Positions 58,227 through 63,376 of a stretch of 64,000 bases of DNA are shown piece after piece (positions within the stretch are counted from its first letter, which is position 1; each line of letters begins with the position of its first letter). The notes under the pieces were generated by a model. It was not told the DNA's origin. It was given only the letters and a program-made list of their open reading frames with translations, and ran no database searches. This DNA comes from Bacteroidota bacterium. GTDB lineage: Bacteria; Bacteroidota; Bacteroidia; B-17B0; Aurantibacillaceae. The stretch covers positions 62,001 to 126,000 of the forward strand of contig JAJNDK010000012.1 in the NCBI GenBank assembly GCA_021156365.1, written 5' to 3'. A program made the position numbers and the translations under genes.

Positions 58227-58286
58227 TTATAAATAATACCAGTGTCAGTTTTTGGTTAAGTGAATATAGTATATTTACATTGGAAA

Positions 58287-60233
58287 ATGAAGCACTTTCT
58301 CTATGGTTTTATACTGCTCTTTCTGATGTGCCAGCAAGCAAAGGCACAGGTTTCGCTCTATAAAATACTGCAGGGAAAAACGGATGGCGAAAAACTGGAT
58401 TACCTGGTTCGCCTGCCTGCCCGGGATAAGGTCAGTGAACAGGAGTTTATCCTGAAAGTGCTTGAAAATATTAAAGCCAAAGCCGAAAAGGAGAACAATT
58501 TTTATTCGCTCACAAAAATAGAGATCATAAAAGGCTCTCTTGACTATAGTATCAAACGCTACGATAAAGCGATTCCTGCCTTCAACGACCTGCTGGACAA
58601 TTCCAAGTTACTTACAACAGATGATAGTGTGTATGTGCTCTTCTTTTTAAAGAACAGCTATGTGTGCATCCGCAATGCAGCAAAGGCGCTGGAAATACAC
58701 AAGAGTTTGCTTGCTATCCATAAGCGTGGAAAAATAAAAGACAACAACATGCTGAATCCACCCCTGAGCGTGATCTATATGCAAATGGAACTGTTTGAGG
58801 AAGCGATCCGGGAGCTAAAACAGGAATTCAGATTACGGCAGGAAAGCGGAGCCGTTACACAGCTTGAGTTGGCCCAGTTTTACAACAATGTGGGGGTGTA
58901 TTACAATCGGAATGAAAAATACGACAGCGCATATGCAAATTTTGTAAGAGCAGGAGAGATCGTTAAAAAGGGATTGTTGAATGCTCACAAAAATGACGAC
59001 AATATGCAATTCTTTAATGCACTTATCGATGGCAACCTTGGAAGTGTCCTTACAAAGCAACGAAAATACAAGGAGGCCATACCCCTGATAAAACGGGATA
59101 TTTTCTGGAGCCTGAACACGATGAACATTGAGAGTGCAGCCAATGCTTATTGCGGAGTTGCGGAATGTTATTGCAGGCTCGGCCAGCACGATCGTGCACG
59201 AAAAGCTATCGACAGTGCCTTTGTTTTATATAAAGGGATCAATTCTTCTTCTCTGCTCAATGCCCATAAAATAAACGGAGAAGTATACCAGGCTGCGAAG
59301 AATTATAAAATGGCGGCAGAAGAATTTGCATATTACATACGCAGGAAAGATTCAGTGACACAGGCTGACAGGCAGATCCAGATGGTAAACGACCAGGTGG
59401 CATTTGAGCTGGACGAAAAAGAAAGTCAATTGAAACAGCAAAAACTTAAGATCGAGGAGGGACAGCGGGCACTGGACAATAACAAGTCGGACCAGATCAT
59501 TATGCTGATCGCCATTTTTGCCACCGCTCTTATCAGCCTGATCCTTTTCGTGGCCTACAGGAATTCTACTAAAAAACAAAGAGAATTAGAGATCAAGAAC
59601 GAAGAGATCTCTACTAAGAACACAGTGATCGAACATTCCCTTCACGAGAAAGAAGCATTGATCAAAGAAGTGCATCACCGGGTGAAAAATAATCTCCAGA
59701 TTATTTCGAGCCTGCTGCGCTTGCAGTCTTCCAAACAGGGAGACGAGCATGTGCAGAATATGTTTGACGACAGTGTAAAGCGGATCCAGTCGATGGCACT
59801 GGTGCATGAGCTCCTGTATAAAAACAAGAACCTTGTTTCCATTCCTATTCACACCTATATTCAAAACCTGGCAGAAGGGCTTTCCGTTTCATATGGGCTC
59901 AGCAACCAGATCAGTATTACCGTACATAGCGATGCCGTGCAACTGGATATAGACACCACCATTCCGCTTGGGCTTATCATCAATGAGCTGGTGACCAACA
60001 GTATCAAACATGCCTTTGACGAAAAAGGCGGAAGAGTGGATGTACTGTTTATACTAAAAGACGGAAAGCACAAGCTCATCGTACGAGACAATGGGAAAGG
60101 ACTTCCTGCCAACTTTGCCACACTGAAGGAAACCAGCCTGGGGATGGAATTGGTGGAAGCGCTTTCCGAGCAGATCGGTGCCTGTTATACCTACAGTTCG
60201 GAAAACGGAAGTAAATTCGAGTTTGAGTTTTAA
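58287..60233 (+). CDS. TPR sensor histidine kinase, HisKA_2 type
   Basis: 648 residues from the ATG at 58287, where the signal peptide MKHFLYGFILLFLM begins (cleavage near AKAQ, 21). TPR-like helices fill about 30-360, then a coiled coil with DEKESQLKQQKLKIEEGQ, a membrane span near 410-430 (IIMLIAIFATALISLILFVAY) and a second coil. The kinase part has EVHHRVKNNLQIISSLLRLQS with phospho-acceptor His463 or His464, NELVTNSIKHAF, and DNGKGLP in the ATPase domain. This HisKA_2/HWE type is typical of light and stress sensors. No response regulator is adjacent. It converges on the sigma/anti-sigma operon through a terminator. Confidence 0.92.
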   Translation: MKHFLYGFILLFLMCQQAKAQVSLYKILQGKTDGEKLDYLVRLPARDKVSEQEFILKVLENIKAKAEKENNFYSLTKIEIIKGSLDYSIKRYDKAIPAFNDLLDNSKLLTTDDSVYVLFFLKNSYVCIRNAAKALEIHKSLLAIHKRGKIKDNNMLNPPLSVIYMQMELFEEAIRELKQEFRLRQESGAVTQLELAQFYNNVGVYYNRNEKYDSAYANFVRAGEIVKKGLLNAHKNDDNMQFFNALIDGNLGSVLTKQRKYKEAIPLIKRDIFWSLNTMNIESAANAYCGVAECYCRLGQHDRARKAIDSAFVLYKGINSSSLLNAHKINGEVYQAAKNYKMAAEEFAYYIRRKDSVTQADRQIQMVNDQVAFELDEKESQLKQQKLKIEEGQRALDNNKSDQIIMLIAIFATALISLILFVAYRNSTKKQRELEIKNEEISTKNTVIEHSLHEKEALIKEVHHRVKNNLQIISSLLRLQSSKQGDEHVQNMFDDSVKRIQSMALVHELLYKNKNLVSIPIHTYIQNLAEGLSVSYGLSNQISITVHSDAVQLDIDTTIPLGLIINELVTNSIKHAFDEKGGRVDVLFILKDGKHKLIVRDNGKGLPANFATLKETSLGMELVEALSEQIGACYTYSSENGSKFEFEF

Positions 60234-60239
60234 AACTAA

Positions 60240-60267
60240 TTCCTGAAGGTTTTAGAACCTTCAGGAA
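60240..60267. terminator. Hairpin between convergent genes, probable bidirectional terminator
   Basis: A perfect 12-base stem, TTCCTGAAGGTT (60240-60251) with AACCTTCAGGAA (60256-60267), and a TTAG loop. The right flank TTTATTAT and the left flank AAAACTAA are A/T-rich but have no long T run, so efficiency is uncertain. Confidence 0.6.
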
Positions 60268-60285
60268 TTTATTATCGCGAACGTA

Positions 60286-62700
60286 CTAATGAGCGCTATC
60301 ATCGATAATATGACCTTCGCTCCAGAATAGCTGTGGAGCACATGGAAAAACAATCGGATATACTTTCATTTTGAACTTTTCTCTCTCCGCAATTTTTTTC
60401 TGACGGATGTTTTCTTTCTGATCAAACACCTGGAATTTATAGTCTTTCAACAAATCCGTTTTGGCTGATACGGCGTGTGAAGTATTCAACCTGTTTTCAA
60501 CTTCCTGCTCCGTACTTTCCTTTAAGACACTTGTGTAAGATTGTGCACTTATGGTTTTCGTTTCGGAATAAAAGAGCTTATTCCCTTTAAAACCTATTAC
60601 AACAAGGTCGTAATGCAGCAGTTCATTCAGGTTTTCTTCAAACCGCACTCCTTTGTTTTTCATCAGCTGGAAGCTACTGAGCTTATCCGGCAGGAGGTAG
60701 GCTACTACTTTGTCGTATTCATTTTGTTTGGTTACATTAACTGTTGCTGTTTTATATTGGATCATTGCTTTTTTACCGGTTTGCGGGTCCGTGTAATCCA
60801 GTGTCGTTCTGTTAGTAGTCGATTCTATTACATATGCATCCACATTTTTCCATCCTGCCGAGCTTACAGGCGCTGAAACATAAGATACAGGAGGCGGTGC
60901 AGGATTTCGTAGTTTTCCCAACTGGCGGTATGCTTCATCCAGGTTCATTTCTAACTCTTCTTCAAATACTTTTGATTGACGGATCGATTCGCTTAAAGCG
61001 TGGGTATTTCTTTCGGAAAATGCAGCGATATTTTGTTTGTTCTCCTCTGCCATTAAGTTTTCCATCGCGTCGAAGGCTGCTTTTTCATAGATCCGTTTTT
61101 TGTCGCTGGCATATTTTTGCAGACTGCGCATGTGCTTACTGTCGATCCGCACACCTCCTTTACGCTCTTTGTAAAAATCACGGAATGCCTGCTTTTGTTC
61201 TCCGCTGCACATATCTGCCGCTATACTGTCGAGGACATATAAGTTCTTGTCTAAATTTTGGACATACAGGTTCAGGATCCGGTCGTCGCATGTTTTGAAG
61301 ATGACCTGCAGACGTTGTTCGAACTCGGTAGTTGCAAGGAAGGTATTGTCGAATTTTTTATCCCAGATAGCTTTGATGCGGGAAGGATTGATCTCTTCAC
61401 AGTCATCTGTTTTATAGCAATCACCTTTCACTATATAATCTACGATCGCATTGAGATCGTTGGAACTTAAGGTTCCTTCGAATACAGGCATCGCTGGGCC
61501 ACCGTTTTCTTTCAGGATTTTGTTGGCATACACATCCCCCTTCCTGATCAGTTTTTCATTATTTTTTATATAATCAAACAGCCATCTTCCCGGAGGCACA
61601 CGATCGGCAATACCTTTCATTCCCGGACCGGTAAGATGCTGGTCACACATTGAATGGCACACTGCGCAGTTTTGTTTGAAGAGCGATTTACCATCGGCAG
61701 AAAGCATTACTCCAGGTTCCACGGAATAACCTTTTTTCATCGCTTTTGTCGGACGCATTTTCTCTTCGATGATACTGTCCGATGCTGCCGGAGCAACCGG
61801 TAAGGCTATGTCCATATTGCCGCAGATAAAAGAATAATACAAACTATCCGTAAATTTTTTATCGCGAATATTATATCCCCATTTTTGCAGGGAATCAAGA
61901 TAACCCGGAGGATAAAAATTAAGTTGCTTGATATCAGTGGTAGTCAGCTGTCGTACTGTTTGAATCGGGTTTACCCAATTGATGCTTCCGTCTTTTTCAC
62001 GTTTGCCGTCGAACAGCATCATGTCATTCCGCTTGCCATTGTAGGGAACACTTGCCTGGATCGGTTTTTCCTGGTCGATGTCGAGGTTCTCATTCCCTTC
62101 ACGGGCGTTGAGGTAGAACATCCCACCTGTTTCGAGTAATTGCCCATTGCTGGTAGTGCTCAGACCTGCCTTCATGATATCAAGAGCGGTAAGTGCTTCC
62201 TTGATCTCAATATCGACGGGGTTCTTTTCCGCTTCTCCGAATTTGTTCAGGAAAGTACCGGCTTCTATGGCAAATAGGATCCCGCCTTTCGTTTCGATCA
62301 CCGTATCTCTCAATGGGTTGATCCGGATCGTTTGCGAGGGTAGCATCTTGTCTGCTTCCGACCAGCTTTTGTTGCCTTCTTCATTCAGCTCGTAGCGGAT
62401 CTCATTGTCATTTTTATCCAATTGTTTTTTAACAAAATAGCCGGTGGCAATAACGGCTACTGCAATAGTAGCGGCGATCACCGTTTTCAAAATAGTTTTC
62501 GTGAGCTTTGTCTTTTTGAAGGATCTTCTCACTTCATTCTTCAGACCCATGCGTTGAGCGCCTTTGATCACCTGGGTTTGTAGATCGAATTCGTTTTTTA
62601 AAGCCAGGTTGTTTTTTAGTTGTTCCTCAAAATTTTTCCTTTCCTCTGCGGAAAGCTCATTGTTGAGGTATTTATCTATGAGTTCGGTATATGCGTTCAT
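60286..62700 (-). CDS. Membrane anti-sigma-like protein fused to a c-type cytochrome
   Basis: 804 residues in this order: an N-terminal cytoplasmic helical part (1-50; IDKYLNNELSAEERKNFEEQL) like the anti-sigma modules beside Bacteroidota ECF factors; a basic stretch and one membrane span (about 69-90); a beta module (about 120-230; GGILFAIEAGTF, LETGGMFYLNA) like the lipoprotein at 17299-18759; a cytochrome c domain (about 333-430) with CAVCH (Cys345, Cys348, His349) and a candidate axial Met404 in GGPAMPVF; then about 370 residues of helices and beta strands with PAPPPVSYVSAPVSS. Positive residues before the span favour N-in, C-out topology, so haem lies in the periplasm where c-type maturation occurs. 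It starts 12 bases after the ECF sigma gene, the normal sigma then anti-sigma order. The domain combination is what makes it unusual; regulation by redox state or haem loading is inference. Confidence 0.88.
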   Translation of the reverse strand: MNAYTELIDKYLNNELSAEERKNFEEQLKNNLALKNEFDLQTQVIKGAQRMGLKNEVRRSFKKTKLTKTILKTVIAATIAVAVIATGYFVKKQLDKNDNEIRYELNEEGNKSWSEADKMLPSQTIRINPLRDTVIETKGGILFAIEAGTFLNKFGEAEKNPVDIEIKEALTALDIMKAGLSTTSNGQLLETGGMFYLNAREGNENLDIDQEKPIQASVPYNGKRNDMMLFDGKREKDGSINWVNPIQTVRQLTTTDIKQLNFYPPGYLDSLQKWGYNIRDKKFTDSLYYSFICGNMDIALPVAPAASDSIIEEKMRPTKAMKKGYSVEPGVMLSADGKSLFKQNCAVCHSMCDQHLTGPGMKGIADRVPPGRWLFDYIKNNEKLIRKGDVYANKILKENGGPAMPVFEGTLSSNDLNAIVDYIVKGDCYKTDDCEEINPSRIKAIWDKKFDNTFLATTEFEQRLQVIFKTCDDRILNLYVQNLDKNLYVLDSIAADMCSGEQKQAFRDFYKERKGGVRIDSKHMRSLQKYASDKKRIYEKAAFDAMENLMAEENKQNIAAFSERNTHALSESIRQSKVFEEELEMNLDEAYRQLGKLRNPAPPPVSYVSAPVSSAGWKNVDAYVIESTTNRTTLDYTDPQTGKKAMIQYKTATVNVTKQNEYDKVVAYLLPDKLSSFQLMKNKGVRFEENLNELLHYDLVVIGFKGNKLFYSETKTISAQSYTSVLKESTEQEVENRLNTSHAVSAKTDLLKDYKFQVFDQKENIRQKKIAEREKFKMKVYPIVFPCAPQLFWSEGHIIDDSAH

Positions 62701-62712
62701 GACGGAATGTTT

Positions 62713-63249
62713 TTAATTGGTTTTTAAATATTCTTTGGCTTTCTCAATGCAGCGGTATTTCTGGTTCTTCGCTACTTTTTCGGAGCTGAAGCCCAGGTCA
62801 TTCGCTATTTCTTTCATACTTACTTTTTTGAAGTAGAATAGCTCCAGGATCTGTTTGCATTTGCTGCCAAGCTGCTCTATTGCTGCCTGGGCCTTTTTTA
62901 CTTTGCTGTCTTCGCGGATGTCTGCTTCGATCCCGGTTTCCGCCAATTGATTGTAGGCGATTGTTTCAGAGCTGATCTTCTTGTTTTTCTTCCGGAGCTC
63001 TTCCAACCAGAGCAATCTTGCCACGCCAAATAAATAGGTATGCAATCCGGAGCTGAGCTCAAAGTTTCCCGATCTTATTTTAGTGAAAAGCACAATAAGC
63101 GAATCCTGGAAGATGTCCTCTGCTTCCTGCCTGGAGCCGCTGTTGCCGATGATGTGTTTTTTGACGACCGGGTAATAAGTGTACAATTTTTTGATAACGG
63201 GACGAAGTTTTTCCTCCTGTATCAGCTGTAGTATTTCTGCATCTGTCAT
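62713..63249 (-). CDS. RNA polymerase sigma factor, ECF (sigma-70) family
   Basis: 178 residues, ECF size. Region 2 shows AEDIFQDSLIVLFTKI and LHTYLFGVARLLWLEELRKK; region 4 has GSKCKQILELFYFKKVSMKEIANDLGFSSEKVAKNQKYRCIEKAKEYL, a helix-turn-helix. It directs RNA polymerase to its own promoters and is presumably held by the membrane protein encoded 12 bases downstream. No exact -7 TAnnTTTG box is found in the 150 bases upstream, as might be expected for an autoregulated ECF operon. Confidence 0.95.
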   Translation of the reverse strand: MTDAEILQLIQEEKLRPVIKKLYTYYPVVKKHIIGNSGSRQEAEDIFQDSLIVLFTKIRSGNFELSSGLHTYLFGVARLLWLEELRKKNKKISSETIAYNQLAETGIEADIREDSKVKKAQAAIEQLGSKCKQILELFYFKKVSMKEIANDLGFSSEKVAKNQKYRCIEKAKEYLKTN

Positions 63250-63376
63250 GCTGTATGTTTTACTATGAATGTCGGTTTGGCGAAAAGGTCATCAAAAAAA
63301 TGAAAATAATTGTTCTTTTTCGATAAGTTATTGAGTATGAATTTGTTTTTTGAGCAACCGACCGTGTAAAAATTAA

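Follow-up and report, generated by a model that had tools for sequence, protein, structure and literature searches.

An ECF sigma factor operon of Bacteroidota whose membrane anti-sigma-like protein carries an ActA-type cytochrome c domain in a swappable slot

Closest described systems

ECF sigma factors consist of regions 2 and 4 without region 3, and ECF/anti-sigma pairs, sensors with c-type haem and long anti-sigma factors of Bacteroidota are already known. To our knowledge, most ECF sigma factors of Bacteroidota have no known regulator. In the Class I anti-sigma factors (ASDI), such as RseA, RskA, RsiW and RslA, an upstream sigma gene accompanies a protein with a helical cytoplasmic N-terminal domain, one membrane span and a periplasmic sensing half, and the operon is autoregulated. 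The protein described here resembles them in this layout but has no zinc motif in its N-terminal domain and carries a c-type cytochrome domain, as no known ASDI does; its periplasmic half is unrelated to that of RseA. According to PMC7406223, ASDIs accompany just 6% of the ECFs of Bacteroidetes, so that proteins of this type are little charted in this group. Another relative in design is Dma (PMC13088901), also from Bacteroidota, which combines an N-terminal anti-sigma domain, a membrane helix and a long periplasmic part with an adjacent ECF gene. In Dma a disordered tether leads to an outer-membrane beta-barrel, whereas the periplasmic part of our protein consists of a beta module and a slot, followed by a tail of predicted helical and Ig-like structure.

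Covalent haem in membrane signalling proteins is represented by the Geobacter chemoreceptor domains GSU0582/GSU0935 and by haem Cache domains (PMC3460858, PMC12889525). In these the haem motif is part of a PAS or Cache fold of chemoreceptors and other signalling proteins, while here the motif sits in a cytochrome c domain and a whole respiratory cytochrome domain is built into an anti-sigma-like factor. The homologue of this domain is the N-terminal domain of ActA, a subunit of alternative complex III (ACIII). The role proposed for this mobile, membrane-anchored domain with the sixth haem in Flavobacterium johnsoniae is to carry electrons to cytochrome aa3 (PMC8552683). ActA has five further haems and is linked to the ACIII operon; the cytochrome described here has a single haem motif and no such link, being fused to a sigma-linked membrane protein.

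The preliminary description of this locus knew of no anti-sigma factor with a built-in c-type haem. We found none with a cytochrome c domain in the literature searched, which did not take in most subscription papers, and a planctomycete lead gave nothing usable. Against this literature, an anti-sigma factor that has a slot for domain swaps and holds in it a respiratory cytochrome domain which tracks the host's ActA appears to be new.

The two-gene operon and its sigma linkage

The window is the whole stretch of 64,000 nucleotides that was analysed, part of a 5.3-Mb genome (G000) of the class Bacteroidia. Positions below are window positions, and the features of the operon are on the minus strand, except for the hairpin, to which no strand applies. 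An ECF sigma gene followed 12 bases later by an 804-residue ORF had been claimed, and both ORFs lie exactly as described, the 178-aa sigma factor at 62713..63249 and the 804-aa protein at 60286..62700, with 12 bases between the sigma stop codon and the ATG and both genes in one frame. The sigma ORF scores 71.9 bits with the sigma70-ECF profile TIGR02937 (cut-off 42.9; 4.6e-20). Its region 2 (Sigma70_r2) passes the Pfam cut-off, region 4 falls just under it (4.7e-5), and in structure comparison the predicted fold resembles SigE, SigW, AlgU and SigK. Judged by these profiles and the fold, this is a clear ECF sigma factor. The 804-aa protein has full-length relatives, L002-L005, at 38-48% identity. 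These two genes make up the entire operon, which is probably terminated by a hairpin at 60238..60269 (14-bp perfect stem, -19.2 kcal/mol) between convergent genes. The convergent neighbour (58260-60233) encodes a TPR-containing HisKA_2-type histidine kinase and shows no sign of membership in the sigma/anti-sigma system.

Residues 1-66 (62503..62700) form the putative cytoplasmic anti-sigma domain. None of the curated anti-sigma families among the Pfam and TIGR-type profiles passes its cut-off here; zf-HC2, an anti-sigma family, stays below the Pfam cut-off at 0.009, and the match to RslA of the SigL/RslA complex is weak (E 1.6). The N-terminus, described earlier as anti-sigma-like, is nevertheless conserved in at least 26 sigma-linked relatives. 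The single membrane span that had been proposed is found at residues 69-91 (62428..62496), at the sole strong hydrophobic peak of the protein (around residues 66-90, KD 1.9; next best 1.07).

Among the non-redundant members that have the anti-sigma domain and readable upstream DNA, an ECF gene lies upstream in all 16 with the cytochrome and equally in 20 of 20 tabulated ones without it. The distance is usually within 50 bases, with one intervening gene at L052. The fusion recurs and nearly always sits next to an ECF gene, but four relatives (L043, L055, L059 and the lipoprotein-like L109) keep the cytochrome, the beta module and the tail without an anti-sigma domain or a sigma gene. L043 is nested in the clade of the window protein and has the leuS neighbour also found at L044, so it has probably lost its sigma and anti-sigma parts.

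These sigma-less relatives, taken with the lack of a curated anti-sigma match above cut-off, could mean that the N-terminus is not an anti-sigma domain, that the neighbouring genes are independent and that the protein is a membrane cytochrome only. We give this very little credence, as a sigma gene lies upstream wherever the N-terminal domain is present and the DNA before it is readable, no cytochrome-bearing member without the domain has one, and a joint model of sigma factor and domain is of high confidence. For this model the sigma factor and residues 1-100 were folded as one chain with the stop codon read as Ser, using an alignment that included unpaired and in-frame paired relatives. It reached pLDDT 93.8 and pTM 0.85, with a five-residue read-through linker that forces proximity and without a negative control, and in it the N-terminal domain is helical. 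Its PDB neighbours are ECF sigma chains, many of them from sigma/anti-sigma complexes (SigW-RsiW, AlgU-MucA, SigE-RseA, SigK-RskA). The predicted structure is support for the pairing, not proof of it.

A swappable slot and the ActA origin of its cytochrome

Behind the membrane span, residues 101-291 (61828..62400) form a beta module that is kept family-wide. Its earlier description as ZU5-like finds no support in Pfam, as ZU5 had no match in the 804-aa protein at E<=1 or in the genome at E<=0.001, with control genomes also giving no match. The best non-cytochrome fold match of residues 97-250 is instead the GAIN domain of GPR56, a weak one (Z 6.6, 132 residues aligned), and the canonical GAIN/PIDD self-cleavage motif (H-L/F-S/T) was not seen by eye in the family consensus. 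Residues 335-430 (61411..61698) occupy what we call the slot. Cytochrome c families pass the curated Pfam cut-offs over residues 335-425 (PF13442, 1.2e-8; PF00034, 1.8e-8), and the predicted fold resembles Rhodothermus cytochrome c 3cp5 (Z 11.3). The domain has the haem attachment motif CAVCH at residues 345-349 (61654..61668) and a candidate axial ligand, Met404 (61489..61491), as first noted, and with CXXCH, distal Met and cytochrome c fold it has the hallmarks of class I monohaem c-type cytochromes. The long tail of 370 residues was likewise recovered, with residues 435-799 (60304..61398) conserved in the family alignment A3 and predicted to form helices and an Ig-like sheet, with no barrel. 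When the model of the 804-aa protein was searched by itself with Foldseek, no structure matched at E<=0.001; its cytochrome, GAIN-like and Ig-like parts became visible only on a second comparison.

The tail alignment A3 was used as the query for a family census since it avoids other cytochromes. It retrieved 30 loci in genome contigs, with matches in 40 of 395 genomes of the class, 14 of 87 genomes of the window's own family and 4 of 395 genomes of a phylum sample, all four from the same class. This census sampled the class rather than exhausting it, and many of the genomes are metagenome assemblies. The result is a Bacteroidota family of about 40 sigma-linked proteins which, by domain mapping, have one scaffold of anti-sigma domain, membrane span, beta module, slot and tail. 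What differs is the slot, which is empty or holds a parvulin, a DsbD-like domain or cytochrome c. Most members have just 30-70 residues from the beta module to the tail, i.e., an empty slot. PPIC-type parvulin domains are present in L105 (1e-21) and L107 (2e-12), while L108 has a sub-threshold match to DsbD_N (0.0086) and L106 and L064 look similar by eye only. The swap is clearest for L049 (cytochrome), L053 (empty) and L105 (parvulin), which have a common backbone and differ mainly in the slot, L053 being 81% and L105 60% identical to L049. The tree set contains 17 in-slot cytochromes. Their placement as a single clade is rejected (AU p=5.6e-6), which rules out one common insertion and indicates several gains or losses of the cytochrome in the slot.

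Other variants were seen alongside these. Three sigma-linked anti-sigma relatives of one family have TonB_C behind the tail (L103:2927-5575, L104:4114-6771, L094:451-3066), above the cut-off in L104 (3.8e-9) and L094 (4.3e-10) and just under it in L103. A further ECF gene in the genome of the window (L034:1408-3296) is preceded by a gene for a membrane-anchored protein of 435 aa that has this beta module and no anti-sigma domain, cytochrome or long tail. Genome G067, in which no ActA was hit, has two adjoining sigma/anti-sigma pairs (L102:3911-13192), each with a divergent cytochrome.

The nearest relatives of the slot cytochrome are the N-terminal domains of ActA. The window genome encodes an ActA with six haem motifs beside ActB, followed by ActC-ActF, CoxB and CoxA (L033), and it also encodes cytochrome c assembly proteins. 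The slot domain of the window protein is 66% identical to the N-terminal domain of its own ActA and 73% to that of a congener; across members, identity to the host's own ActA domain reaches 75%. In a domain tree the window slot groups with ActA of its own genus (97/88) and not with the slots of other anti-sigma factors, whereas its backbone groups with other anti-sigma factors. Judged by homology, the slot domain is derived from the mobile shuttle domain of ActA and is not a generic cytochrome. G006 encodes a separate 195-aa membrane-anchored protein with an ActA-type cytochrome domain outside the ACIII operon (L037:3075-3659).

We compared slot and ActA domains by permutation in the 18 genomes that have both. 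Mean identity of the slot domain is 61% to the ActA of its own genome versus 47% to the ActA of other genomes (p=5e-5 both over all genomes and within the family; within a single genus p=1e-4). In 12 genomes the host's ActA ranks first, alone or in a tie, and in the other 6 it does not; in 11 of the 18 the slot domain is nearer to its own ActA than to any other anti-sigma slot. Particular stretches are common to both proteins: in G189 the slot and the ActA have YGDVDxWL...KVRASGD together with its lineage-specific insertion, and in G241 both have RWEGxGDIYAWIKNSSAYLKTGN. Shared host bias as the cause of this tracking is ruled out by a control in which ActE replaced the slot domain and no own-genome effect appeared (p=0.27 by identity, 0.88 by score). 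Silent-site identity exceeds the codon-usage expectation in G000 (0.56 vs 0.41), G017, G189 and G241 and not in several others, so that recent gene conversion is not the sole cause and older captures or co-divergence are needed too. Assuming roughly similar rates, one ancient insertion that had merely diverged would be as far from own as from foreign ActA; the difference seen calls for captures that were repeated, for conversion or for co-divergence with a common partner. The cytochrome c domain first reported in this anti-sigma-like protein is real, recurrent and conserved in its haem signature, and can now be described more closely as an ActA-type domain that tracks the ActA of its host. This tracking points to the electron junction between ACIII and aa3.

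Two other uses of the haem can be weighed here. The domain may be a sentinel of cytochrome maturation, in which a haem-free and unfolded apo-domain leads to proteolysis of the anti-sigma factor and so reports haem supply or a failed cytochrome c assembly; the domain of ActA would have been captured as a monohaem unit that is small and can be tethered. This would agree with the haem signature, as CXXCH occurs in all slot cytochromes found and 22 of 23 slot-type domains have a distal Met, and with the presence of the assembly proteins. Any monohaem domain would serve such a purpose, but time and again it was an ActA-type domain close to that of the host which was taken, and the parvulin and DsbD-like occupants of the same slot require no haem; we regard a sentinel as improbable. 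Direct binding of NO, CO or oxygen by the haem, as in c-haem Cache domains, has a precedent in the c-type haem sensors of NO (PMC12889525). It is a far more distant prospect for the slot domain, which has the conserved Met ligand of electron-transfer cytochromes and no open site recognizable by sequence, and a gas sensor would have no need to track the host's ActA.

Promoter, output and proposed function

A conserved motif, GATGACCTTTT-N11-CATTMAT-N4-AAA, precedes the sigma gene (63258..63293) and was identified by family conservation and a genome search. Of the family's 27 sigma genes, 24 have GACCTTT upstream, mostly as GATGACCTTTT-N11-CATTAAT, and the window copy is the only such site in its genome with up to 3 mismatches allowed. 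In 26 genomes, all ten exact sites for GACCTTTT-N11-CATTMAT lie before these operons, one of them, in G224, before a truncated remnant, while sites with one mismatch are near the control level. Autoregulation of the operon is well supported by this distribution. Since the exact motif occurs only before these operons, no target other than their own promoter is predicted, and a broader regulon would have to depend on weaker sites; beyond that promoter nothing rose above control in a search that detects only promoters close to the autoregulatory motif. The G224 remnant has the conserved promoter directly before a fragment with part of the cytochrome and the tail (L101:4700-6224), and deletion seems to have removed its sigma, anti-sigma and beta parts. 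In G017 the motif, with one mismatch, accompanies a further ECF/anti-sigma pair of this kind whose periplasmic half is unrelated (L032:251-2490).

One possible reason for such a narrow output is that the circuit serves to make its own protein. The periplasmic module could be an effector, its cytochrome doing electron-transfer or assembly work beside the ACIII-aa3 complexes, and the sigma/anti-sigma part an on-board controller of its supply: consumption, cleavage or engagement of the module would free sigma, and more of the same protein would be made. This is a serious alternative and the strongest one, although we consider it rather unlikely. It is favoured by the confinement of the exact motifs to these operons, by the hairpin-terminated operon of just two genes and by the relatives that have lost or lack the sigma and anti-sigma parts and retain beta module, cytochrome and tail, one of them inside the window's own clade; parvulin, an enzyme fold, is moreover among the slot domains. 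Against it, the motif search sees only promoters near the autoregulatory one, and the slot is empty in most members of the family.

We favour, at a probability of about 0.45, a reading in which the operon senses the respiratory junction by mimicry of ActA. The two genes would be an autoregulated ECF sigma/membrane anti-sigma operon and the periplasmic half a modular receptor, whose slot holds a copy of the host's own mobile cytochrome c domain. Once loaded with haem, the slot domain may sample the docking sites at ACIII or aa3, or the electron pool, that ActA uses. A particular redox or docking state could then be relayed through the beta module and the tail to the cytoplasmic domain, which would otherwise bind and inhibit sigma, and the sigma factor so released would transcribe its own operon. 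Several observations speak against mimicry of ActA. The tracking could stem from captures that each time drew on the nearest DNA at hand, and in six of the 18 genomes own ActA does not rank first. Most relatives function without a cytochrome, four others keep it without anti-sigma domain or sigma gene, both copies in G067 bear cytochromes although no ActA was hit there, and the own operon is the sole target found. The earlier interpretation, in which periplasmic redox state, oxygen or haem supply would control the release of sigma, is partly supported; it is weakened by the four sigma-less relatives, by the slots that are more often empty or hold a parvulin or DsbD-like domain, and by the single promoter. 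The claim in its full extent, that Bacteroidota have anti-sigma factors with a domain-swap slot repeatedly loaded with the host's shuttle cytochrome, that the circuit reads ACIII-aa3 electron flow by mimicry and that these are the first anti-sigma factors with covalent haem, we put forward slightly more tentatively still.

The series of empty, parvulin, DsbD-like and cytochrome-bearing slots on nearly one backbone makes the input of an anti-sigma receptor directly testable. If the proposed reading is true, signalling proteins would have gained their input in a new way, by taking up the electron-shuttle domain of the host again and again, and the cell may read its own respiration directly into gene expression.
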